A stretch of 64,000 nucleotides of DNA from a virus. How positions within the stretch are numbered: position 1 is the first letter of the stretch; the number at the start of each line of letters is the position of its first letter. Positions 2,651 through 30,448 of this stretch are shown piece after piece. The translations under genes were made by a program, and so were the position numbers. The notes beneath the pieces are model-generated. The model saw only the letters and a list, made by a program, of their open reading frames with translations, was not told the origin of the DNA and searched no databases. The stretch spans positions 1-64,000 of the IMG/VR virus record IMGVR_UViG_3300021957_000024; one strand, 5' to 3'.

Positions 2651-2655
2651 AAGTA

Positions 2656-2687
2656 CAAATATACGAAATTATTTTGAATTATCCAAA
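2656..2687 (-). promoter_or_regulatory. Bacteroidota-type promoter for DNA polymerase
   Basis: Read on the minus strand: TTTG (2687-2684), 20 bases, then TATATTTG (2663-2656). This is an exact match to -33 TTTG / -7 TANNTTTG. The predicted transcription start is within about two bases of the polymerase ATG. The element overlaps the 3' end of the small gene 2669-2845. Confidence 0.8.
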
Positions 2688-2845
2688 TTTTTACAATCTT
2701 TTTTATGAGTAAACCAACCACCACATTTACATTTAATATAATGTATTGTTGCTACGATAAAAGGTGAACTTGCCATTGCAGTCCAAATATTAGGGTGAAA
2801 GTGTTCACCACATAATCCAAATATATGTCTAAAAAATTCTATCAT
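2669..2845 (-). CDS. Small Cys-rich (zinc-ribbon-like) protein
   Basis: 58 residues, read directly from the minus strand. The protein starts MIEFFRHIFGLCGEHFHPN and ends with CKCGGWFTHKKDC followed by KNLDNSK. Cysteines at about 12, 40, 42 and 51, with nearby histidines, could bind a metal (inference). The ATG (2843-2845) overlaps the TGA of the upstream methyltransferase gene in an ATGA arrangement, which indicates translational coupling. It is therefore the last gene of the six-gene operon 6784-2669. I do not recognise the family. It may be an accessory or DNA-binding subunit of the neighbouring enzymes. Confidence 0.7.
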   Translation of the reverse strand: MIEFFRHIFGLCGEHFHPNIWTAMASSPFIVATIHYIKCKCGGWFTHKKDCKNLDNSK

Positions 2846-4089
2846 TTTTCAAATATCCAAATTGGTTCACAAAAAGTTTTATCTTGATTTTCTTCTGAAC
2901 TTTTCAAGGTTTCTTCTTTATATTGTTTTTCATTGTGTTCTGATGCTTTTACAGTACCTGCCCCACCACTATTTGGTCTTTTTGCCATTTCCATACCGAT
3001 ACATCCTTTATATGTTAATCCTTTAGATTCTAAAAACTCACACATTGGTTGTGTTATTTCTTTCCAATCTTTTCCACCACCACCTCCACTTGTATATACA
3101 TCTGCAATATTGATTGCTATCTTACCACCTTTTTTAAGTGTTGGTATAATTTTTTCTAATGCTTTGTGAAGAAAATATTCATTCCATGCTTGGATTGATT
3201 TATATCTTATCCAACTTTGAGTATCATCTTCACCATATCGTTCCACATTAAAATAAGGAGGAGAAGTGAAAACCAAATCAAAATAATCTTGGTATTCCCA
3301 ATAATTAAAATCTTCTGCTGGTGATTGATGTAAATCTACCTTTGTTGGATTTTCAAAGAAAGAAGTGTGTTTTTGATAAAAATCTCTTTGTTGTTCATAA
3401 ATAGGATGATTTTCTTTACGAGGGTCTATTCCAACATAATGTTTTACAGTTGAACTAGCACAAGCACCCGATAAACGGTCTCCCCAACCAGCGGAAAAAT
3501 CTAACATGGTCTCAGAACCAAAAAATTCTGTTAAACATTTAGTGACATTTGGTTTGTGTTGAGATGCAATATATTTACGAAGTGAAATCATTAATCTTAA
3601 TTCTTTCTTTCCAATTTTATCTAACTTCAAACTATATGCAGCACCCATTAAAGTAACCATAAATGCTCTTGTTCTCCATGTCCTTGCTGGACCTGGATAA
3701 CCACTCGAACATATTGACCATCTATTTTTTTCTTGCCACCAATTACTTGAAAGATTTCCTACATTGTATCTTTTAAAGAAAAGAGGTTTACCTTCATAAG
3801 TTAGTGGGTATTTAGATTCTCGTGATTGTCTTTGAAACCATTCTTTTCCTTCTATCAATAATTCGTTCCAACGAATTCCTTTTAGTTTAAAATAATCTGC
3901 TCTACAATCATCTTCTGTATATTTTTCTGTCTGATAAGGTAGAGGATATGTCATGCATAAATCTGCAAGTTTTTCCTTTACTTCATCTTTGGTGTACATA
4001 TCTTTTATGTTTTGCCATTCTTCCTCATTTATTTCTAAATAAGGTTTCATTCCATAAAATTGTTCAAAGTAATCTTCTCCTCCGTGCAT
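2842..4089 (-). CDS. SAM-dependent methyltransferase with SPPY motif
   Basis: 415 residues. A SAM-binding motif I (LDFSAGWGDRL, 196-206) and an acidic strand (VGIDPRKEN) are followed by motif IV FTSPPYF (SPPY 276-279). This is the order used by many DNA amino-methylases, and SPPY is typical of cytosine-N4 enzymes. The roughly 190-residue N-terminal region is unusual and rich in Trp and Tyr. The gene is coupled to its neighbours: its ATG overlaps the stop of the PLP enzyme (TAATG), and its stop overlaps the next small gene. Because it sits beside synthase, synthetase and PLP genes, it could methylate a modified nucleotide or an intermediate rather than a restriction site. Its substrate is not established. 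Confidence 0.75.
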   Translation of the reverse strand: MHGGEDYFEQFYGMKPYLEINEEEWQNIKDMYTKDEVKEKLADLCMTYPLPYQTEKYTEDDCRADYFKLKGIRWNELLIEGKEWFQRQSRESKYPLTYEGKPLFFKRYNVGNLSSNWWQEKNRWSICSSGYPGPARTWRTRAFMVTLMGAAYSLKLDKIGKKELRLMISLRKYIASQHKPNVTKCLTEFFGSETMLDFSAGWGDRLSGACASSTVKHYVGIDPRKENHPIYEQQRDFYQKHTSFFENPTKVDLHQSPAEDFNYWEYQDYFDLVFTSPPYFNVERYGEDDTQSWIRYKSIQAWNEYFLHKALEKIIPTLKKGGKIAINIADVYTSGGGGGKDWKEITQPMCEFLESKGLTYKGCIGMEMAKRPNSGGAGTVKASEHNEKQYKEETLKSSEENQDKTFCEPIWIFEK

Positions 4090-4934
4090 TATTTTAAGTT
4101 TAATGATTTTCTATAAGAACCACCTATATTCCAAAATAGAATCTTACCATCTAATTTCTCTATGTTATTTTCTAACCACCACCACATTTTACGCTCCCAA
4201 AATTCATTCATATCAAATGGGTAATCTGTAACTTCATCCATAAAATCATCAAAATCATATTCTGATTTATAAATGTGGATATTATTTAAATCACCTGCTT
4301 TGTTTTCATTTAAAATCTTTTGAGTAGATGTAAGAGATGACATTGTAACTGTATGAACTTGTCTTTTATTTTTTAGAATATCTTTCCAATCTTTATATTG
4401 TAAAAATTCTCTAATCAAACCAGATGCAGTTACACCACTTCCAATTGATACAACAAGATGGTCAAAATCTTCTTTTTCCAAAACTTGTTTCATTCTATCT
4501 TGCATATAGTTTATATATGCTGGGTGATTGAAAGCATACGGTAATTGTTGCCAACCATTCTTTTTTGCAATACCACCCAATTTATTTTCAAGTAGTTTCA
4601 TCATATTTGGTTTCATTGGATTCAATGTTGCACCATTACCTTTGATGATTTCTAATATCTGAGGTGGATATGTTTTAGAGTTTGGATAAGATGAAATAAA
4701 TTCAATACCATACTCTTTACACATCTTAGATAATGTCCAACCAGTCCAACTTCCATATACTGAGAGATGTGTTAGTGGTTTTGATTTATCGATATAATCA
4801 GATTCTATAATCTTTCTAATACCTTCAATCTTAGCCCATCGTGGATAGTTCACACCATCCCCAACTAAATCATCTCTTTTGACATGAACTGTCTTTCCTT
4901 TTATTTTGTATTCTTCTATCGGAGTTAGAACCAT
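4089..4934 (-). CDS. PLP-dependent fold-type-II enzyme (ACC deaminase / D-cysteine desulfhydrase-like)
   Basis: 281 residues. VKRDDL (18-23), followed by YPRWAKIEGIRK, matches the KREDL...NKxRKL region of this family and makes K35 the probable PLP lysine. YGSWTGWTLS (60-69) fits the substrate-carboxylate loop, and SIGSGVTASG (163-172) is the glycine-rich phosphate-binding loop. Family members catalyse deamination, desulfhydration or beta-replacement on small amino acids. It overlaps the PP-loop gene by 10 bases and the methyltransferase start by one. In this operon it may supply or attach an amino-acid-derived group (inference). It is slightly shorter than the usual 320-340 residues. Confidence 0.75.
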   Translation of the reverse strand: MVLTPIEEYKIKGKTVHVKRDDLVGDGVNYPRWAKIEGIRKIIESDYIDKSKPLTHLSVYGSWTGWTLSKMCKEYGIEFISSYPNSKTYPPQILEIIKGNGATLNPMKPNMMKLLENKLGGIAKKNGWQQLPYAFNHPAYINYMQDRMKQVLEKEDFDHLVVSIGSGVTASGLIREFLQYKDWKDILKNKRQVHTVTMSSLTSTQKILNENKAGDLNNIHIYKSEYDFDDFMDEVTDYPFDMNEFWERKMWWWLENNIEKLDGKILFWNIGGSYRKSLNLK

Positions 4935-5851
4935 TCGTGTTGCACTTCGTTTTTAATTTTATTGTAATGAGATATAAGTTGTTTCTTTTCAACTCCAAAT
5001 ATTTCACAATGAAGTGTATTTATATCTCCTTTTTCTTTTTTCGTATGAAAGTTAGATTTGTTTTTTGCATTACCAAATCTTTCAAATTCATCTTTAAATA
5101 ATACATCAGTTACAAACCATTTTTTCTTTTCTTTTATTTTATCATCTTCAAATTTAAAATTAGTTTGTTCATAATTTACATTCTGAAAATGTTTGTAAAT
5201 ACTTTCTGTCTGCAATGGTGTATCTAAAGTAACTCCAAAAGAATTTATGTATTTTCTAATTGATACATGATTATGAACATTACCATTAAAATTTTTATCT
5301 TCATAACACATTCTACGATGGTCATTATAATGTTTATCAAATTCTTCTCGTGTAACATTACCTCGTAACATATCTCTATATTTAATACTTAATTTGGCAT
5401 TCGTTTCATATATAACATCCTCATATAATCCAGCAACTAAATGTTGAGTCGAAATATAATGCAACATATACCAATATGCATAACAACATTGAATATCTAT
5501 TTTTCTTGATATTCCAATTCTATCAATAACATCTTTTATTATTTTTGATGCACTTTCTTTATTTATTTTAGGTATGTTTACAATTTGTAATGGAATACCA
5601 TATCCTTTTGCAATCTTACGAGAATAAATTAAATCATTTGTATCGTGATTCTCTACTTGAAATGTAAGTAACTGAGATGGTTTCTTACCTAACTCCATCA
5701 AACCATATAATAACATAGATGAATCTATACCAGCAGAAAATGATAATGAATAATCATCTGGTATTTCTGATAATCTATTTAATAAAAGTTTTTTGAAATC
5801 CCATGCCCATTTTGGATTGGGTTCAAACTTAAATGATTTGTGTACTTTCAT
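4925..5851 (-). CDS. PP-loop ATP pyrophosphatase / asparagine synthetase-like synthetase
   Basis: 308 residues. SFSAGIDSSMLL (SAGIDSS 39-45) is a variant of the SGGxDS PP-loop that binds ATP pyrophosphate. LVAGLYEDVIYETNAK resembles the GDGxDE region of asparagine synthetase domains. There is no N-terminal glutaminase domain, so ammonia or an amine would have to come from elsewhere. Such enzymes adenylate a carbonyl or carboxylate so that a nucleophile can attack it. Its start overlaps the stop of the TS-like gene (ATGA) and its end overlaps the PLP gene. I infer a role in decorating a nucleotide made by the neighbouring TS-like enzyme; the real substrate is unknown. Confidence 0.7.
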   Translation of the reverse strand: MKVHKSFKFEPNPKWAWDFKKLLLNRLSEIPDDYSLSFSAGIDSSMLLYGLMELGKKPSQLLTFQVENHDTNDLIYSRKIAKGYGIPLQIVNIPKINKESASKIIKDVIDRIGISRKIDIQCCYAYWYMLHYISTQHLVAGLYEDVIYETNAKLSIKYRDMLRGNVTREEFDKHYNDHRRMCYEDKNFNGNVHNHVSIRKYINSFGVTLDTPLQTESIYKHFQNVNYEQTNFKFEDDKIKEKKKWFVTDVLFKDEFERFGNAKNKSNFHTKKEKGDINTLHCEIFGVEKKQLISHYNKIKNEVQHEWF

Positions 5852-6546
5852 TTACCTAATACTTCTAACAATTTAATTGTTTTCTTTTTTTCATTATCCA
5901 TATCACCGATGTGACATGAACAAGCAAGTGTAGTTACTTTTCCTAATTCTAATCCACTTTGTTCAGCAAGGAAATGTCCCATTTCTGTTAATGCAGTATA
6001 ATCTGCATAACCTGATTTCGATACTCTGTTTGAACGAAGTATTGATGTGAGATATAATTTACCATTTCTTGGTTTTAAATCAATCATACACATACAAGGT
6101 TGAGAATAAGGGTTCCTTGCATCTTTAGTAGGGTCAAAGATAATAAGTTCACATCTTTTTACTGCTTGTCCTCTACTTAAAATCTTAATTACATTTTCAA
6201 CTTGATTGAATTCACCTCTCCAACTAACCATTCTACCCCAATAAGATTGATGATAATGGTCTTTAATGAATTTATAATCCAATCCTTTTTCTGCTTCAAA
6301 AAATGGATTATCTGATTTCTTTTGTTCTGGTTTAAGAAAGGTTACTGTCTTAGCAAAATCAATTCTATCATCACCCATTATTTCTCTGAAGTGACCATCA
6401 AACCAATCATCTGATTTGAATTCTGTAATTTCAGTAACTACATTGAGTTCTTCTGTAAGATTTCCTACCTTTACTCCATTTTCTAATAAATGCTTCGATA
6501 CTTTTACCCAAGCATCACCTGGAGAGGTTGCTTCTATAACCGTCAT
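5848..6546 (-). CDS. Thymidylate synthase superfamily enzyme, dCMP hydroxymethylase-like
   Basis: 232 residues. QPCMCMIDL carries the likely catalytic Cys (the PC of TS), LRSNRV matches the TS arginine-serine, GLELGKV matches the conserved GLxxGxF region, and CHIG keeps the TS histidine. Aligned by eye without gaps back from the LAEQSGLELG helix, the TS asparagine that selects dUMP is Asp here (in GYADYTAL), as in T4 dCMP hydroxymethylase. The family transfers a one-carbon unit from methylene-tetrahydrofolate to pyrimidine C5. It is second in an operon with PP-loop, PLP and methyltransferase genes, which fits synthesis of a modified cytosine. The usual TS Gln and Asp near RS are not conserved, so it is divergent. 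Confidence 0.7.
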   Translation of the reverse strand: MTVIEATSPGDAWVKVSKHLLENGVKVGNLTEELNVVTEITEFKSDDWFDGHFREIMGDDRIDFAKTVTFLKPEQKKSDNPFFEAEKGLDYKFIKDHYHQSYWGRMVSWRGEFNQVENVIKILSRGQAVKRCELIIFDPTKDARNPYSQPCMCMIDLKPRNGKLYLTSILRSNRVSKSGYADYTALTEMGHFLAEQSGLELGKVTTLACSCHIGDMDNEKKKTIKLLEVLGK

Positions 6547-6547
6547 A

Positions 6548-6784
6548 TTAAATTCTGTTAATTGGAATCGTAATTAACGAAAAGTTATCATCTTGTGGAT
6601 GTTTTTTAGAAAAATCTACTTTTGAATCTAATTTCATTTTAAATGCCGTTTCAGTTTCAATATAAAATAAACTTTCTGAACCATCTATACTATTAAGTTT
6701 TTTACTTTTGTTAATTGGAACATTTGGAGTCCCTTTTATTACTACTTCTTTATCATCTGTGTGGATAAATTTTATTCCTGCCAT
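6548..6784 (-). CDS. Hypothetical protein, first gene of modification operon
   Basis: 78 residues beginning MAGIKFIHTDDKEVVIKG, with no motif I recognise and no membrane segment. A host-like promoter lies 23 bases upstream of the ATG, and no Shine-Dalgarno sequence is visible in the short A/T-only leader. One base separates its stop from the TS-like start, so it belongs to the operon. The family is unknown. Confidence 0.75.
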   Translation of the reverse strand: MAGIKFIHTDDKEVVIKGTPNVPINKSKKLNSIDGSESLFYIETETAFKMKLDSKVDFSKKHPQDDNFSLITIPINRI

Positions 6785-6806
6785 ATATTATTAATTTAAG
6801 TTTATA

Positions 6807-6837
6807 CAAATATACGAAAAATATTTGAATTTTACAA
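6807..6837 (-). promoter_or_regulatory. Bacteroidota-type promoter of the six-gene modification operon
   Basis: On the minus strand, TTG (6837-6835), 20 bases, then TATATTTG (6814-6807). The expected start leaves a leader of about 16 bases before the ATG at 6784. The -33 element abuts the stop codon of the preceding small gene. Confidence 0.75.
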
Positions 6838-11783: not shown

Positions 11784-11805
11784 TGATTAAATGTATTTAT
11801 AAGTA

Positions 11806-11837
11806 CAAATATACGAAAAATATTTGAAACTACCAAA
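11806..11837 (-). promoter_or_regulatory. Bacteroidota-type promoter for the helicase
   Basis: Minus-strand TTTG (11837-11834), 20 bases, TATATTTG (11813-11806). The -33 element abuts the stop codon of the FEN gene. The sequence after the -7 element (TACTT) is identical to that of the polymerase promoter. Confidence 0.8.
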
Positions 11838-15222: not shown

Positions 15223-15723
15223 TCATAAAAATTGATTTAATTTTACTTCAATATCACTTACATCTGATGGTGTTTCATCGAATCTATAATGATAAGTAAG
15301 TGCATCTGCACAAACAATATTTTTATCAAGGATATCCAAAATTTCTTCAGTTGGATTTGGTCCTCCCAATCTTTCTTTACATAACTTTACATTATCTTCC
15401 ATAAGTTCTACTCCATAAGTTGTAGAAAGTGCTTGTTCTAAAGTACAATGACTTCTTTCCATTTTTCTGATTACTACTTCGGAAAGGAATTGACCATCAC
15501 CACACGATGGGTCTAAAAATGTTTTAGTTGAGTTTGAAAATAGTTCCGAATCTCGTTCTTCAAGTTTATCCAACATTTCCTGCACCAATGGTGTAGGAGT
15601 AAATACTTCAGCCGTTTCTTTTACTCGAAGTTTATCTCTTTCTATACCACTCATATAAGAGCGATTTCTACTATGTTCAATAAAATTATCCAACATAGTT
15701 TTCAATGTAGTTAATATCTTCAA
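15223..15723 (-). CDS. Short adenine-methylase-like protein lacking motif IV
   Basis: 166 residues. AEVFTPTPLVQEML and FLDPSCGDGQFL are the N-terminal and SAM-binding motifs of Eco57I/type I adenine methylases, and ADALTYHYRFD follows. The protein ends where the catalytic NPPY/F segment should begin, so it should bind SAM but not methylate DNA alone. It overlaps the NPPY-containing methylase gene by 38 bases and may act as its partner. I recall similar short proteins in other marine phages, which argues against simple decay. It is the last gene of the four-gene operon. Confidence 0.75.
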   Translation of the reverse strand: MKILTTLKTMLDNFIEHSRNRSYMSGIERDKLRVKETAEVFTPTPLVQEMLDKLEERDSELFSNSTKTFLDPSCGDGQFLSEVVIRKMERSHCTLEQALSTTYGVELMEDNVKLCKERLGGPNPTEEILDILDKNIVCADALTYHYRFDETPSDVSDIEVKLNQFL

Positions 15724-16918
15724 TACTTTTTATTCCAAACTTATTATAAATTTCACCATCACTCCATTCTTTATTAGTTCCAATATTTGGTAAAATTCTT
15801 AATATATCTTTATTTATAAAACCACTCCATTTGGCAGAACTAACAATATATTTGTATAATTTAGAATTTAAAATATTTAATAAATTTTCCCCTTCTTTTT
15901 TTGATTTGACAATTATATATGGAACTACTTCACTTGTACTAATAGTACCATTATCAAATAAAGGATTGTAATACCCACTAATAGTTAGATATACTTTAAA
16001 ATCATCATGAGATTTTGATTTTATCTTTGAATAGTATGATTGTGCATTCGTGTGATATACTTTATATGGATGAGTTGTAGAATATTTATCAGACCATTGA
16101 TTTTCTTTTTTAGATGAGTGATTTGTAGTAGTATCACCATCCCAATTAAATTTTGGAAATGGTGATTCATTAAATATCTTATGTATTTTAGTAGATATGC
16201 TATTAATATCAGATTGAATATAGTCAAAGTTGTTTAAATCAAAATTAACACCATTTATATTAGTATTACCGATATATGCTTCATTTTTAACAATCCAATA
16301 TGAAAAGGTAGAACCAACATCAAAGTGATTAGAGATTTCAGTATTGATTAAAACTAAGTTGTTTTTTTTAAATAATTTAAATACATCATTGCTAGGACTT
16401 CCCCATGAAGTCGGTGTTACAAACGAAACAACACCACCTGTTGATAAATTATTATTTAAAGATTCAACAATAAATTTGCTCCATAAATTATGAGCTTTTG
16501 GTTGAACACCACCCGTCTTACTGGTTTCTTGATATGGTGGGTTTCCAAGTATTACATCAAAATTCATATTTTTAAATATTTTATTATCTAAAAAATCTCC
16601 TTTAATTAGATTTTTTATTTTTAATTTATGATTAACAAGTTCAAATCTAAAATCTTCAATTTCTATACCATATAACATATTATTTAATATGTGTTCTTCT
16701 GAATGATATTGAATTAATTTTAAATATACAAAGAATAAATAACCACCAAATCCAAACCCTGGGTCTAGGATTTTTAAATTAGGATTTGACCAATCTATTG
16801 GTAATTTATTTACCATTTCTTCAATTACTTTAATGGGAGTAGAACCATCTTGTCCAGTAGGGATAGTTGATGTTCTTCTTATGTAACTAATATATTGTTC
16901 TCGTGTTCTAATTTCCAT
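15686..16918 (-). CDS. N6-adenine DNA methyltransferase (Eco57I-like)
   Basis: 410 residues. LDPGFGFGGYL (51-61) is the SAM-binding motif, YGIEIEDFRFE the following acidic strand, and GNPPYQETSK (NPPY 126-129) the catalytic motif IV. The C-terminal part (about 150-410) should hold target recognition. Its ATG overlaps the helicase stop (TAATG) and its end overlaps the short methylase. This is the modification component expected beside a restriction-like helicase-nuclease; the recognition site is unknown. Confidence 0.85.
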   Translation of the reverse strand: MEIRTREQYISYIRRTSTIPTGQDGSTPIKVIEEMVNKLPIDWSNPNLKILDPGFGFGGYLFFVYLKLIQYHSEEHILNNMLYGIEIEDFRFELVNHKLKIKNLIKGDFLDNKIFKNMNFDVILGNPPYQETSKTGGVQPKAHNLWSKFIVESLNNNLSTGGVVSFVTPTSWGSPSNDVFKLFKKNNLVLINTEISNHFDVGSTFSYWIVKNEAYIGNTNINGVNFDLNNFDYIQSDINSISTKIHKIFNESPFPKFNWDGDTTTNHSSKKENQWSDKYSTTHPYKVYHTNAQSYYSKIKSKSHDDFKVYLTISGYYNPLFDNGTISTSEVVPYIIVKSKKEGENLLNILNSKLYKYIVSSAKWSGFINKDILRILPNIGTNKEWSDGEIYNKFGIKSIEDINYIENYVG

Positions 16919-19149
16919 TATCGTACAAGTTGAAGATTTACTTTGTATGTATCAATTATATTTTCTTTTACTAACAACTTTAAAACTGATTTTTCAGTTT
17001 TTGTTGCCCCATAAAATAAGTTATCTGGTAGATTTTCTAAAATATCTTCAACTGTTTCATAACCAAGTTCACATATAATAGGCAATCTACTCATTAAAGT
17101 TGCTATTCTTGAAATAATATCTCTTTTAGTTTTATCAAAAGGTTTTCTTTCTGATTCTGAAAGATGTTTTAAATTTTTACCTTTTTTCATAAATTCTTTT
17201 GAAGATGTGATTTCAAGTTTAAGTTTACGACTTTTTTCTTTGTCCAATCCCATAATCATTTGAAATAATTTTTCAGAGATTTTATCTAACATAACATAAT
17301 CGTGGCCTGAGTTTCTTAAAGTTTTTGAATTATAGTCTGAATCTCTAATAGCTGATAATACATCTTCTAATGTTTTTTTCTTAAATTCAACTCCACCGTC
17401 AACACCATAAACATTAAAATTATCGAGATATTGTCTTAAAATTTCATTTGGATTTTTAATACCTCTTTGTTGAGCAGAATATCTTGAATATTCAGCCAAC
17501 ATCACTAAAGTTCTGTTTGGATTGAAATCAAAAACATATCCTTTTTCTTTACCATCTTTTGGAGATGTTGGTCTAAATGCTGTTTGAAAATAAAACTCAG
17601 CAGATTCGGTATCATTTAAGAAAAAGGTAGCATCCCATTCTGGTACAGTTGAACCTCGTGTAAATCTACTAAGTGATAGTACTATTGATTTTTTATCTTT
17701 ATTTAATTTTAAAAAATCTTTAACTTCAGAAATATCATCTGTCTCACTACCAGTTGCAGCAAATACTTGATACTCTCCATTTGTTACTTTTTCAATTAAA
17801 GATTTCAGATGAATAACTGCATCAGAATTAGGAGGTAATACCCAAAAAGTATGTTGTAATTCTGGTATAAGTTTGTAGGGTGAAAAACTCGTTTTAGGAA
17901 TTATCCCAAATACACATTGTAAAAAAGTAGTTACATCCCCCTCGTGAATAAATCTTTTAGTTTCTTTATTCCACGAAAATAACTTTGTCAAAGTAAATCC
18001 TTCTTCATCGGAATACCACTTTTGTTGTTCTTTAATTTTATCAAATACTTCCATACAATACCAATCAAGAGATATAGCTCTTTTATCAATACCAAGTTTC
18101 TTATCTTCTTGTTGTTGAATGTAATCGTAAATATAAGAATTGTGTGGGGTAAATTTACCAGTTGAAAGTAACTTCCAAGGTGTTCCTGTAATCCAAATCG
18201 TAACAGAGGATGGAAGTTTTTCAAGAAGTTCGGTTGATAGTTCGGTTAACATTGCAGTGTCAGCTTCATCAACACCTCGAATATCCCAATCATATTGAGA
18301 TAACATTTTTACTAAATTTTTTCGGTGGGTTTTATGAAGAAGAAGTTGTGTACTAACTGCAAGTACATTTACTCGTTCATTTGATGGTTTCCAATTATAC
18401 TTCTTATCTTTAAGTTCATCATAAATCCAACCATTATAGTTTACATGAGAATTAACATCGGTTTTAAGTGATTCAAATACATCGGGTCTACTTGTAATCA
18501 TTAAAACATTACCTCCTTTTTTAACAATTTTTCGTGCCATTTCAAGAAAAGTAAAGTTTTTACCAAATCTCATAACTGCACCAAGAAGAAAATCAAGTGA
18601 TTGTCTTTTTGATGATAGCTTATTTGCTAAATAATATTGTTCAAATAATTTAATTGCTTCTTCTTGTCTTAAACGAGGTAAATATGTTTCTTTACGAACA
18701 TTCCAAAAAGTTTCAAATTCACTTGGATAAAGAATTGAATTTACCAATTCTTGAATAGTTTCAACATCTGTTTCAAATACCTCAGTAGATGAACCAAATT
18801 TACTTTTTTTACCCAAATGTGGTCCTACTTTCTGTTCTATCTGGTATGCTGTACCGTATTTTTGAATTTGTTCATCTGATAATCTGATTGCCCATAAAAT
18901 AACAATTGCATCGGTGGTAGTTCCAACATAACCAGATATTGTTTCTTGTGGAGTTGAACCTTCGTTTGAATATGTACCATATTGACCAAACTTTGGTTTA
19001 AACTTACCACTTAAATATTGGTCTCGATATGTCCAAGCATACAAACCCTGTCCTAATCTACCAAATACTTCAAGATTAGTATCAAGCGGTGTCTGAAAGA
19101 GTATATTACCTCTTTTTTTTTCTATTAATGTATTTAATTTGTTTATCAT
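16918..19149 (-). CDS. GIY-YIG-like nuclease / SF2 helicase fusion (restriction-like)
   Basis: 743 residues. The N terminus (about 35-130) has GLYAWTY, KFGQYGTY and YQIEQKVGPHLG, then STEVFETD. This matches the layout of the GIY-YIG-superfamily T5orf172 domain (KxGxT...E...H..L...EWF), with E105 the likely metal ligand. An SF2 core follows: Walker A GAVMRFGKN (190-198), DEAD box VDEAD (293-297), motif III TGTP (321-324) and a motif VI-like FQTAFRP. Walker A ends in Asn instead of Thr/Ser. The fusion resembles restriction subunits that translocate and cut. It is coupled by TAATG junctions to genes on both sides. Confidence 0.75.
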   Translation of the reverse strand: MINKLNTLIEKKRGNILFQTPLDTNLEVFGRLGQGLYAWTYRDQYLSGKFKPKFGQYGTYSNEGSTPQETISGYVGTTTDAIVILWAIRLSDEQIQKYGTAYQIEQKVGPHLGKKSKFGSSTEVFETDVETIQELVNSILYPSEFETFWNVRKETYLPRLRQEEAIKLFEQYYLANKLSSKRQSLDFLLGAVMRFGKNFTFLEMARKIVKKGGNVLMITSRPDVFESLKTDVNSHVNYNGWIYDELKDKKYNWKPSNERVNVLAVSTQLLLHKTHRKNLVKMLSQYDWDIRGVDEADTAMLTELSTELLEKLPSSVTIWITGTPWKLLSTGKFTPHNSYIYDYIQQQEDKKLGIDKRAISLDWYCMEVFDKIKEQQKWYSDEEGFTLTKLFSWNKETKRFIHEGDVTTFLQCVFGIIPKTSFSPYKLIPELQHTFWVLPPNSDAVIHLKSLIEKVTNGEYQVFAATGSETDDISEVKDFLKLNKDKKSIVLSLSRFTRGSTVPEWDATFFLNDTESAEFYFQTAFRPTSPKDGKEKGYVFDFNPNRTLVMLAEYSRYSAQQRGIKNPNEILRQYLDNFNVYGVDGGVEFKKKTLEDVLSAIRDSDYNSKTLRNSGHDYVMLDKISEKLFQMIMGLDKEKSRKLKLEITSSKEFMKKGKNLKHLSESERKPFDKTKRDIISRIATLMSRLPIICELGYETVEDILENLPDNLFYGATKTEKSVLKLLVKENIIDTYKVNLQLVR

Positions 19150-19767: not shown

Positions 19768-20196
19768 TTATTTTGCCCACTTACCACTTGAAACGAGTTG
19801 AGCAATGATTCCATATACTGATAAATCTTGGAATGTATCTTCACATGATTCACCAATATTATCTTGTTTACCAAGTACAACTAATTGTTTTAATCTTTGA
19901 ATCTTATCATTCATTCTAAACCAAAGACCAGTTAATGAAACTTTCTTTTCTTCTTCAGTTTCTAATTTTGAACCAACTGAAATATTATCAGGTCCATAGT
20001 TAGATTGTTTTAAACAAAACAATTCATATTGTGTGAACATTATTCTTTTGAATTCCGCAGTCATTTCTGGCCATTCTTTTTCCATCTTCTCTACTATTTC
20101 AGGATTATCATATGCAATAATTTCATCATATTGAGGTTCTACTTTAATTGGGTTAAATTTGTGATTTTTACTTTGTTTTTTTATTGCTTCTGCCAT
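19768..20196 (-). CDS. DUF1599-like protein (nucleotide-modification-associated domain)
   Basis: 142 residues. SNYGPDNIS, LWFRMNDKIQRLKQL and ESCEDTFQDLSVYGIIAQL match the helical pattern YGxxNI...RxxDKxxRLxxL...ExxxDTxxDLAxYxII. I associate this pattern with the DUF1599/nucleotide-modification-associated family, an all-helical fold with conserved acids reminiscent of NTP pyrophosphohydrolases. The exact reaction is not established. It may filter nucleotides, which would fit the modification operon at 2.7-6.8 kb. It has its own host-like promoter. Confidence 0.65.
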   Translation of the reverse strand: MAEAIKKQSKNHKFNPIKVEPQYDEIIAYDNPEIVEKMEKEWPEMTAEFKRIMFTQYELFCLKQSNYGPDNISVGSKLETEEEKKVSLTGLWFRMNDKIQRLKQLVVLGKQDNIGESCEDTFQDLSVYGIIAQLVSSGKWAK

Positions 20197-26030: not shown

Positions 26031-26045
26031 TATATATAAATATTA
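26031..26045 (-). promoter_or_regulatory. Late-type motif for the lipoprotein nuclease
   Basis: Minus-strand TAATATTTATATATA, overlapping the stop codon of the family A polymerase-like gene, about 23 bases before the nuclease ATG. Confidence 0.55.
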
Positions 26046-27350
26046 GATTTTTGAGTAATCCTTACCCCAATCTGCTTTGACAGGAAATCCAAAACTTTCA
26101 AGGACGGACTTAACCTTTTTAATAGTATCAACCTCAGAATTATCGAACTCAAATAAAAAACTATCGTATGTGTAAAGGATAGGTAGGGGTAGGTCGTTTT
26201 CTTTCAACTTTTTCATCGCCTCGATATTGAACTCGGTTTCGGTTGCTTGTAGTAAATAATTGAATAACTTTTGTGAATTGGGTTTTTCAATCCAACTTAA
26301 TGGGATTTTTCTTCCTTTTGGAGTTTGAATATATCCATTTTGAAGTGCTTTATCATTTAAGGATTGTATAAACTTATCCACCTTATCAAAGAATGGGATT
26401 TTTCTATCTTCATCACTTACACCACCATAAAGGATTCTAAAGGTTCTTCCTTTACTTTCATCATAATCACAACCATATTGGTCTGCCAACCATTGGTGAA
26501 CCGAAGTATCGGGTAAATCATATCCAATCAACTTACCAATAATTCGTACATGGTATGCATCGTAATCAAATTGTAAGAATAGAGAATCTTCGGGTGGAAT
26601 AAAACATTCTCGTGAACCATCTTTTTTGTTAAGAGCAGAGAAGTTAACACCACCATGTCTGTTTGAAGGTCTACTTGTTATTGTGTAAGGATTATATTCG
26701 GTATAAACAACATCTCCTTGTGGATGTAGGTAAATGTGTTTTAAGTTTTGAGGCCATCTATCAATAAATTTTTTCCTATCGACCCCCAAACCACTTTGTT
26801 CTAAATCTGAAAGGATAGGAATCATCGTATCATCAATCCAAGTTGTATTATCTTTAAGGAATTCTCTAAGATAATTTGGATGTGAAGGAGAAATATCTCC
26901 CCATTCACCAACAATCTCTCGTAGAACCTCACCCCACTTCATTATAGGGATTGATTTACCTAAATCATCTCTTATACCCAATCTATGGTAAAAGTTCGTT
27001 AGAACCTCTATTTTCTCATAGAAAGGATATAATTCATTCTTATTAAAGAATAAAGATGATTGTACATCTTTGAGGTTGGTTATATTGAGTTTTGCTTGTA
27101 GTAATCCTTTTTTATTCCAACAAAACTTCATTTGATTCGAGGTTGATAAATCTATTTCTAATTTTTCACAATCATTGTGATTAAACGGTAAGATAAAATG
27201 TTCTTGGGAAAAGGCAATATAAAGAAAGGACAACCCATTATTCATAGGATGTCTTTCCAAATCTTCCCAAATTGGAATAATCGTTGATTGTTCGTTATTC
27301 CAATATTCGAGAAATTGTTCTTTCTCTTTATTAGTTTCTACTATTATCAT
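26043..27350 (-). CDS. Family A DNA polymerase-like protein (divergent)
   Basis: 435 residues, shorter than a Klenow fragment (605). PYTITSRPSNRHGGVNFSAL fits the region before motif A, LQFDYDAYHVRIIGKL (D262) motif A, KGRTFRILYGG (300-310) motif B and LYTYDSFLFEF (D396) motif C. By eye the motif A Glu that acts as the steric gate is His267, and the motif C HDE is YDS. The N terminus may retain a reduced 3'-5' exonuclease domain (WEDLERHP; D30, E32). The phage already has a family B replicase, so this is probably a specialised repair, translesion or primer-processing enzyme, or is degenerate. Its ATG overlaps the stop of a small upstream gene. Confidence 0.8.
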   Translation of the reverse strand: MIIVETNKEKEQFLEYWNNEQSTIIPIWEDLERHPMNNGLSFLYIAFSQEHFILPFNHNDCEKLEIDLSTSNQMKFCWNKKGLLQAKLNITNLKDVQSSLFFNKNELYPFYEKIEVLTNFYHRLGIRDDLGKSIPIMKWGEVLREIVGEWGDISPSHPNYLREFLKDNTTWIDDTMIPILSDLEQSGLGVDRKKFIDRWPQNLKHIYLHPQGDVVYTEYNPYTITSRPSNRHGGVNFSALNKKDGSRECFIPPEDSLFLQFDYDAYHVRIIGKLIGYDLPDTSVHQWLADQYGCDYDESKGRTFRILYGGVSDEDRKIPFFDKVDKFIQSLNDKALQNGYIQTPKGRKIPLSWIEKPNSQKLFNYLLQATETEFNIEAMKKLKENDLPLPILYTYDSFLFEFDNSEVDTIKKVKSVLESFGFPVKADWGKDYSKI

Positions 27351-27502: not shown

Positions 27503-27534
27503 CAAATATACGAATTTTTTTTGAATTTACCAAA
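27503..27534 (-). promoter_or_regulatory. Bacteroidota-type promoter for the small gene and family A polymerase
   Basis: Minus-strand TTTG (27534-27531), 20 bases, TATATTTG (27510-27503): an exact consensus match, overlapping the 3' end of gene 27527-28093. Confidence 0.8.
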
Positions 27535-29692: not shown

Positions 29693-30448
29693 TTAAGAAA
29701 TTTTTGCTGAACCTACATCAATTGGTTCTCTTTTCATGTGCTTACCAGATGCGAAGTTTGCACCTTCTTTAATATAACCAGTTAAAAATGCTTTTCTAAA
29801 TCTATCAGATGTATTTGCTTCTGAACCATGTACTACATTTGAATGAAGTAGTGCAATTTGTCCTCTTCTTAAATATCCATTTATATGTGGAAAGTTATGG
29901 TCCTCTGGCAATACACAAGGTTTACCTCTTTCATTTCTCCAATTTTTTGGATTTGAACCTACTCTTTCTTCATCCACTTCTATTGGTAATCTACCTAATC
30001 TATGTGAACCTTCTAAATACCAAACAGAACCATTATCTGGGTCATGATTATCTAATGCAATAGAAACATTGATTATTTCGTTTGATTTACATTGTGTATA
30101 AAATATATTTTGATGTTGGTCTCTTCCTAATTGACCTGGTGGTTTAAAGTATGCCCAAGTTTGTACACCAAATATTTTAGAATCCATAAGAAACTCACAT
30201 GCTTCGATAATTTTTGGATGTTTCATTAAATCAGTAAGTAATTCAGATTCTTTATGTGGATACATAAATGGGTCATATTCACCCCATTCACCTTCTGTAT
30301 CATTTTCTTGTCTTTGGATTCTAATTTTTTCTAATTCTTTAGAATATAAATCTACTTCTGCATCTGTTAGTAAATTTAAAACTGATACTCCTTTGTATCT
30401 CCAATCAAATTGTAATTGTTGTTTTTCTAAATCGGTAAGATGTGACAT
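29693..30448 (-). CDS. Phytanoyl-CoA dioxygenase (PhyH)-like 2-oxoglutarate/Fe(II) oxygenase
   Basis: 251 residues. WAYFKPPGQLGRDQHQNIFY aligns with the first metal site of PhyH proteins, GSVWYLEGSHRLG with the central strand, and LLHSNVVHGSEANTSDRFRK with the distal His and the 2-oxoglutarate Arg. The first site reads HQN, where the family normally has HxD, so one iron ligand is changed. PhyH members hydroxylate small molecules; a nucleotide, lipid or glycan are all possible. It has a late-type motif upstream and a terminator downstream. Confidence 0.8.
   Translation of the reverse strand: MSHLTDLEKQQLQFDWRYKGVSVLNLLTDAEVDLYSKELEKIRIQRQENDTEGEWGEYDPFMYPHKESELLTDLMKHPKIIEACEFLMDSKIFGVQTWAYFKPPGQLGRDQHQNIFYTQCKSNEIINVSIALDNHDPDNGSVWYLEGSHRLGRLPIEVDEERVGSNPKNWRNERGKPCVLPEDHNFPHINGYLRRGQIALLHSNVVHGSEANTSDRFRKAFLTGYIKEGANFASGKHMKREPIDVGSAKIS

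Follow-up and report, generated by a model that had tools for sequence, protein, structure and literature searches.

The window analyzed here is a 64,000-nucleotide stretch of viral DNA (positions 1 to 64,000 of IMG/VR record IMGVR_UViG_3300021957_000024), and it carries, between its ribonucleotide reductase and DNA polymerase genes, an operon that is best read as a cassette for modifying DNA bases. The source record is 66,490 bases long and encodes T4-like replication and structural genes. A previous examination of the letters alone (the sequence-only reading) had proposed a six-gene operon under a single consensus promoter, in which neighboring genes overlap or are separated by one base, and this layout is confirmed by our check of the open reading frames, junctions, and promoter. 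All six reading frames, spanning 2669-6784 on the minus strand, are present as described and tightly packed; in gene order, a 1-base gap is followed by overlaps of 4, 10, 1, and 4 bases. They encode a 78-residue protein, a protein of the thymidylate synthase (TS) family, a PP-loop ligase, a pyridoxal phosphate (PLP) enzyme, a methyltransferase-like protein with an SPPY motif, and a 58-residue peptide (Table 1).

Table 1. Operon genes, promoter elements, and a possible partner gene in the window
Feature	Position	Strand	Length	Basis or context
78-aa protein, accessory	6548..6784	-	78 aa	No family above cut-off (Pfam, PHROGs)
TS-fold cytosine-type C5-modifying enzyme (predicted); core gene 1	5848..6546	-	232 aa	PF00303, structure matches, residue map
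PP-loop ATP-dependent amide ligase, CmoY-like, without glutaminase; core gene 2	4925..5851	-	308 aa	Homology
Fold-type-II PLP enzyme; core gene 3	4089..4934	-	281 aa	PHROG 7093, E 7e-19
SPPY (N4/N6-type) DNA methyltransferase-like protein	2842..4089	-	415 aa	N6_N4_Mtase E 1.4e-5, just under cut-off
58-aa peptide with four Cys, accessory	2669..2845	-	58 aa	No family match (Pfam, PHROGs, PADLOC)
Promoter, Bacteroidota type	6805..6837	-		CTTG/TTTG-like upstream element and TATATTTG at 6807-6814
TTTCGTATATTTGTA copy	6805-6819	-		Precedes modification operon
TTTCGTATATTTGTA copy	2654-2668	-		Precedes DNA polymerase gene
TTTCGTATATTTGTA copy	11804-11818	-		Precedes helicase gene
Nmad1/DUF1599-like gene	19768..20196	-		PF07659 E 1.3e-4, just under cut-off

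The promoter ahead of the operon belongs to a repeated type. The 15-mer TTTCGTATATTTGTA is present three times in the 64 kb, every copy on the minus strand, and on that strand the promoter core CGTATATTTG is observed four times against an expectation of 0.05; the fourth core copy (TTCGTATATTTG, 27503-27514) lies upstream of the gene at 26043-27350. From TATATTTG to the first start codon of the operon there are 23 bases. Bacteroidota promoters have the consensus TTTG-N19-TAnnTTTG, and because the operon promoter fits it, the host is probably a member of the Bacteroidota. The operon is closed at both ends, since the TTTCGTATATTTGTA copy directly after its last gene begins the next unit, that of the polymerase.

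A conserved three-gene core

Scanning with the window's TS-like protein yielded 47 loci at 72-96% TS identity, and scans with a PLP-enzyme alignment and a broader TS alignment reached down to ∼43% TS identity, on contigs of 109-376 kb. These relatives were reduced to 57 distinct TS-like proteins, 52 of which lie on contigs long enough to judge gene order, and the order TS-like gene, ligase gene, PLP gene is kept in all 52 (52/52), across 43-96% TS identity. Distances between the three genes are mostly a few bases or overlaps, with small genes inserted in a few loci. The ligase slot holds a longer, glutaminase-bearing AsnB in 43 loci and a glutaminase-less PP-loop form (PPl) in the other 9. The cassette is commonly found beside ribonucleotide reductase and DNA polymerase genes, its neighbors being NrdB, NrdA, thioredoxin, and DNA polymerase B. 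The core is therefore the TS-like protein, the ligase, and the PLP enzyme, inherited as a unit. The expectation that the gene order would recur in other phages is borne out for these three genes and fails for the set of six; the operon itself stands, as a three-gene core plus the SPPY gene, and the notion of six equal parts was dropped, as only close relatives carry the 78- and 58-residue genes. Homologs of the 78-residue protein are found only in L006-L009 (59-64%), upstream of a small helix-turn-helix (HTH) gene in L007-L009. The 58-residue peptide does have the four cysteines ascribed to it, but it is hardly part of the system, because among the 47 loci from the TS-like scan L046 alone has a homolog (72%).

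The SPPY gene is a looser associate of the core. It is present in 26 of the 30 records examined, at one to four copies each, and was not found in M6, S-B43, PaBG, and one 49-kb fragment; its position varies: some copies follow the PLP gene, some precede the TS-like gene, and others lie elsewhere. A motif I of the DFSxGWGDR type (D197, S199, and G201-R205) and the SPPY motif are invariant in 15 sequences, PADLOC calls the window protein a type II methyltransferase, and PHROGs is supportive. On these motifs it would be a writer or methylase associated with the core. We note that in a 376-kb jumbo-phage contig (L191:2390-9587) the TS-PPl-PLP genes are flanked by four SPPY paralogs, three in a row and one downstream.

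Several loci have additional peculiarities. On one contig only (L044:6001-8133), the TS-like and AsnB genes form an in-frame fusion of 710 residues in which the glutaminase Cys2 is lost; we give this little weight, and misassembly may account for it. A GroEL-reading gene stands between the PLP and SPPY genes within the modification locus of L018 (8462-10084), and a gene of 541-546 residues follows the PLP gene in L012 (9115-10746), L025 (9102-10727), and L040 (9100-10740); Pfam returns nothing for the L012 and L040 copies, and PHROGs and NCBIfam nothing for that of L012. Elsewhere in the window, the Nmad1/DUF1599-like gene is a possible partner, the nucleotide modification-associated domain 1 (Nmad1) being present in seven of nine related records. 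A restriction-modification-like set (15223-19149) comprises an Eco57I-like N6-adenine methyltransferase (15686-16918), a further stretch resembling an N6-methyltransferase (15223-15723), and a 743-residue protein with a type IIG restriction-type match (16918-19149). Unlinked to the operon is a PhyH (phytanoyl-CoA dioxygenase) Fe(II)/2-oxoglutarate oxygenase gene (29693-30448; E 2e-20).

Properties of the core enzymes

In family searches, the TS-like protein passes the Pfam cut-off for thymidylate synthase (PF00303; 27.1 versus 24.3 bits), and the ligase, PLP, and methyltransferase proteins fall below theirs and are supported by PHROGs. The TS-like protein also matches NCBIfam TIGR03283 (E 1.4e-21, under that model's cut-off), and a PDB profile search reaches only MilA (E 4e-5) and, weakly, AfhB (E 0.03); these PDB relatives act on CMP or dCMP. 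Foldseek ranks its AlphaFold model (mean predicted local distance difference test [pLDDT] score of 76) closest to AfhB 9iqu (E 2.3e-10), followed by MilA and AfhB 9iqc (with FAD), with ThyA behind. Residues were mapped by alignment with T4 gp42, M6 gp58, the TS of Enterococcus phage nattely, and a ThyA. The catalytic Cys151, the Arg-Ser pair R171-S172, and His212 are retained; C151, R171-S172, and D182 are invariant among the cassette proteins, as is H212, which occupies the position of Escherichia coli H207 (alignment A6). As had been noted by eye, an Asp stands at the position that selects cytosine in T4 gp42: D182, at the position of ThyA N177, aligns with the Asp of T4 gp42, MilA, and AfhB, and with Asn in ThyA.

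The pterin-binding Asp (E. coli D169) is lost in all cassette members with a readable signature, being replaced by Arg (R174) in both the window's group and the 48%-identity group, and by Ala in the jumbo-phage group; it is present in MilA, T4 gp42, M6 gp58, and phage nattely. The loop RSxxxSKSGYAD can be read in 54 of 57 aligned stretches, and every one of these members has it. Four long relatives encode a separate normal ThyA (E 1e-90 or better), and the TS-like protein is therefore freed from making dTMP. From these residues, it is most likely an enzyme acting at C5 of a cytosine nucleotide, and an ordinary folate-dependent hydroxymethylase role is doubtful, because the pterin-binding Asp is lost and the best fold match is the flavin-dependent AfhB. 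Thus, of the earlier assignment as a TS/dCMP hydroxymethylase-like enzyme, the family, the Cys, and the Asp survive scrutiny, and the canonical folate chemistry does not; the structural check similarly returned the catalytic Cys, together with the lost Asp and the AfhB fold. The Arg at the D169 position was considered as a universal carboxylate clamp (compare R350 of CmoX), an idea weakened by the Ala of distant members; Lys177 of the SKSGYAD loop is a candidate for such a clamp. In cellular genomes, our search found TS-like genes only in Chryseobacterium, two in number and distant (L175 and L176); they represent a different subfamily (322 residues in L175) within a region that reads as a mobile element, and keep the pterin-binding Asp (RSND in L175).

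The second core protein had been described as a PP-loop synthetase without a glutaminase. This is correct for the window, whose ligase lacks the N-terminal glutaminase seen in the AsnB of relatives, and we reidentify it as a CmoY-type amide ligase that alternates with AsnB. It gives weak matches to asparagine synthase and QueC models, and a single match among named phages, Staphylococcus phage F1 gp67 (tblastn E 4e-13). F1 gp67 in turn aligns with S-B43 CmoY at 35.5% and matches the genes called 'asparagine synthase' of Synechococcus phage S-B43, PaBG, and many Erwinia/Yersinia jumbo phages; used as a query against the viral contigs, it gave no matches. The PP-loop SxGxDS and a G..D motif of the window ligase line up with those of S-B43 CmoY at 23% identity (alignment A5), which places the gene, by homology, in the CmoY/asparagine synthetase ligase family. 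The AsnB of most relatives has 501 residues and the motifs MCGI (with the N-terminal Cys2 of the glutaminase), SGGIDS (PP-loop), and SGEGSDE (alignment A3); it matches PDB 1ct9 at E 2.9e-39, and the AsnB protein tested scores 284 bits against the NCBIfam asparagine synthase model, whose cut-off is 267 bits. The glutaminase-less form occurs in two places, the group closest to the window and the distant jumbo-phage group.

In F1, S-B43, and PaBG, the ligase genes are adjoined by homologs of CmoA (TIGR00740, E 1e-33 to 1e-48) and of C5 DNA methyltransferases. Neither CmoA (TIGR00740; an E. coli positive control was detected, and the window's record is a fragment) nor a CmoX-type C5 methyltransferase (PF00145) was found in any of nine records examined, and the idea of a hidden CmoA/CmoX pair was abandoned. 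Given these absences, we infer that the ligase would amidate a carboxylate that reaches the modified cytosine by another route. AsnB-type genes also occur in other DNA-modification settings: one adjoins a C5 DNA methyltransferase homolog in Streptomyces phage TurkishDelight (gp123-gp125; L168), and one lies within a 7-deazaguanine gene set in Achromobacter phage Motura (gp020-gp030; L169).

The PLP enzyme, whose Pfam match is below the cut-off, is supported by PHROGs, its predicted fold, and conserved motifs, and is homologous to phage M6 gp52 (26.8% over 95% of its length). Lys35, in the motif WAKIEG/FSKIRG, is invariant in 22 of 22 aligned sequences including M6 gp52, and is likely the Schiff-base lysine. 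The best fold matches of its model (pLDDT 89.6) are D-cysteine desulfhydrase, a homolog of 1-aminocyclopropane-1-carboxylate (ACC) deaminase, and diaminopropionate ammonia lyase, with a resemblance to threonine dehydratase as well; it may act by decarboxylation, elimination, or replacement. M6 gp52 is reportedly a PLP decarboxylase, a point on which we do not rely.

Interpretation and alternatives

DNA-base modification is the best reading of the cassette because the order of the core is conserved, it is located between ribonucleotide reductase and polymerase genes, and its ligase is homologous to CmoY. In this respect, the sequence-only reading of a hypermodification operon holds, with details that are wrong or unproven (core size, ligase type, and folate). 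We favor, with a confidence somewhat above even, a phage operon for cytosine hypermodification with an amide as its end point; the group built on cytosine is most likely bulky. In the pathway that we propose, the TS-like enzyme would act on a cytosine nucleotide, probably dCMP, with Asp182 selecting cytosine and Cys151 attacking at C6. It would not use methylene-folate bound in the normal way; a C5 substituent would be installed with another cosubstrate, either oxygen with flavin (the AfhB chemistry) or a unit bearing a carboxylate. The ligase would then adenylate a carboxylate on or joined to this substituent and form an amide, the nitrogen coming from glutamine ammonia in genomes with AsnB, and from an amino acid or other amine, as for CmoY with glycine, with the window's PPl ligase. 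The PLP enzyme may make or trim the amino-acid-derived part, and the SPPY protein could act on DNA, either by methylation or by transfer of a group to an exocyclic amine. The modified DNA would presumably evade host nucleases. Consistent with this pathway, the ligase has a homolog, CmoY, with proven activity on a DNA base and a family that shows a parallel pair of ligase kinds, seven of nine related records have an Nmad1 domain, and the PLP enzyme has a relative in the hypermodified phage M6. A more specific version, which we regard as tentative and rather doubtful, is that a folate-free TS-fold enzyme with a CmoY/AsnB ligase and a PLP enzyme constitutes a second route to amide-modified cytosine, independent of CmoA/CmoX and used by several phage groups; a carboxylate-bearing or otherwise ligatable C5 handle would be placed at the nucleotide level, the ligase would yield an amide or amino-acid amide, and the PLP enzyme would supply or tailor the unit.

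Several points weigh against the amide pathway. The absence of CmoA and CmoX from the nine records leaves the carboxylate-installing step with no candidate, and the record of the window is a 66-kb fragment. T4 gp56, gp1, and beta-glucosyltransferase have no BLAST homolog in the window or two long relatives, and a T4-like pathway was discarded on this basis. Moreover, phages with a second form of the gene set raise the possibility of a shared chemistry at a position other than C5. The PLP enzyme (45-50%) is encoded in L138-L150, L153, L155, L157, L159, L161, and L162, and also in L151, L154, and L160, with no TS-like gene detectable in any of these loci, whose contigs are mostly fragments. An AsnB-type ligase is present in nearly all TS-less loci of enough length, and SPPY genes in every TS-less record examined. 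A gene resembling D-2-hydroxyacid dehydrogenases adjoins the PLP gene in seven of seven checked (L138, L142, L151, L154, L155, L160, and L161), most of which have SPPY genes close by, and in L160 the genes AsnB-dehydrogenase-PLP occupy the slot of TS-AsnB-PLP, preceded by NrdB-NrdA-HTH and followed by an SPPY gene and the polymerase.

It is mainly because of these TS-less phages that we retain the alternative that the target is an exocyclic amine (N6 of adenine or N4 of cytosine), to which the SPPY protein would transfer an amino-acid or carboxyl group derived from S-adenosylmethionine (SAM), with the PLP enzyme, ligase, and TS-like protein or dehydrogenase reworking it. The PLP enzyme, AsnB-type ligase, and SPPY genes would then be the core common to TS-bearing and TS-less phages, and the tandem SPPY paralogs around the L191 cassette are as expected of sequence-specific writers. 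Nonetheless, we consider this unlikely: the SPPY proteins look like ordinary methyltransferases, several paralogs lie far from the cassette, M6 has a PLP relative and no SPPY family member, and the TS-like gene is left without a clear role. The pathway in its plain original form, in which a folate-dependent dCMP hydroxymethylase makes a hydroxymethyl handle for the PP-loop, PLP, and methyltransferase proteins to decorate, is suggested by the TS fold and by Cys151 and Asp182, as in T4 gp42 and MilA. It seems quite unlikely, as the pterin-binding Asp is Arg or Ala in every readable member, amide ligases of the CmoY/AsnB family need a carboxylate that a hydroxymethyl group does not offer, and the T4-type genes noted above were not found. 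Finally, the three might be auxiliary metabolic genes whose enzymes leave DNA untouched and instead produce a small molecule or change the host's metabolism of amino acids or nucleotides; the asparagine synthase score of AsnB and the resemblance of the PLP enzyme to D-cysteine desulfhydrase, ACC deaminase, and threonine dehydratase would agree with this. We think it very improbable, because a TS-fold enzyme and SPPY genes constantly accompany the set, commonly near ribonucleotide reductase and DNA polymerase, and because the glutaminase-less ligase groups with the DNA-modifying CmoY.

If cytosine hypermodification is correct, at least 52 distinct environmental phage sequences carry an undescribed base-modification pathway, in which the TS fold and the CmoY/AsnB ligase family have been recombined with different partners to give new bases. 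The natural swap of glutaminase-bearing and glutaminase-less ligases in one slot predicts two different end products, and the motif RSxxxSKSGYAD beside an AsnB/CmoY ligase and a gp52-like PLP enzyme provides a search signature for more cassettes.

Comparison with known systems

The sequence-only reading knew of no described pathway with this exact set of genes, and no exact described counterpart emerged from what could be searched. Phage M6, whose DNA contains 5-(2-aminoethyl)-deoxyuridine (PMC6449724), resembles the window in having a homologous PLP enzyme (gp52, PHROG 7093) and a TS-family enzyme, but M6 modifies thymine, whereas the cassette is read as cytosine-directed. M6 gp51, gp53, gp54, and gp55, a region that includes a 5-hydroxymethyldeoxyuridine kinase and an amino-acid transferase, have no BLAST match in the window or two long relatives (G002 and G005), a search that distant homologs could escape; an M6-like pathway was set aside, the PLP enzyme alone being shared. 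T4 gp42 and MilA share TS-family membership, the cytosine-type Asp, and the catalytic Cys with the TS-like protein; unlike the cassette proteins, they retain the pterin-binding Asp. A TS-superfamily 5-hydroxy-dCMP synthase has been described for Mosigvirus, of the RB69/NP type (PMC13390438). AfhB, a flavin-dependent phage dCMP hydroxylase (PDB 9iqu and 9iqc), shares with the TS-like protein its fold, a similar length, the Asp at the N177 position, and loss of the pterin-binding Asp; the two are only 19% identical, and the D169 position is Asn in AfhB and Arg or Ala in the cassette. No arabinosylation genes were seen near the cassette, no genome-wide search having been made.

The closest described pathway, judged by homology, is CmoA-CmoX-CmoY, with a related ligase and a different first enzyme. 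In S-B43, CmoA makes carboxy-SAM (Cx-SAM), CmoX carboxymethylates cytosine C5 in DNA, and CmoY, which lacks a glutaminase, joins glycine to 5-carboxymethylcytosine in DNA; another large cluster of the CmoY family does bear a glutaminase, and its predicted nitrogen source is ammonia from glutamine (PMC12783734). Both systems thus have a homologous AsnB-type PP-loop ligase with the same split into glutaminase-less and glutaminase-bearing forms, and encode a Cys-dependent pyrimidine C5 enzyme beside it, a likeness that extends to the gene sets of Staphylococcus phage F1, PaBG, and the Erwinia/Yersinia jumbo phages. The cassette differs in having neither a Cx-SAM synthase nor a C5-methyltransferase homolog, in place of which it encodes the TS-fold enzyme, and in adding a PLP enzyme and an SPPY gene.

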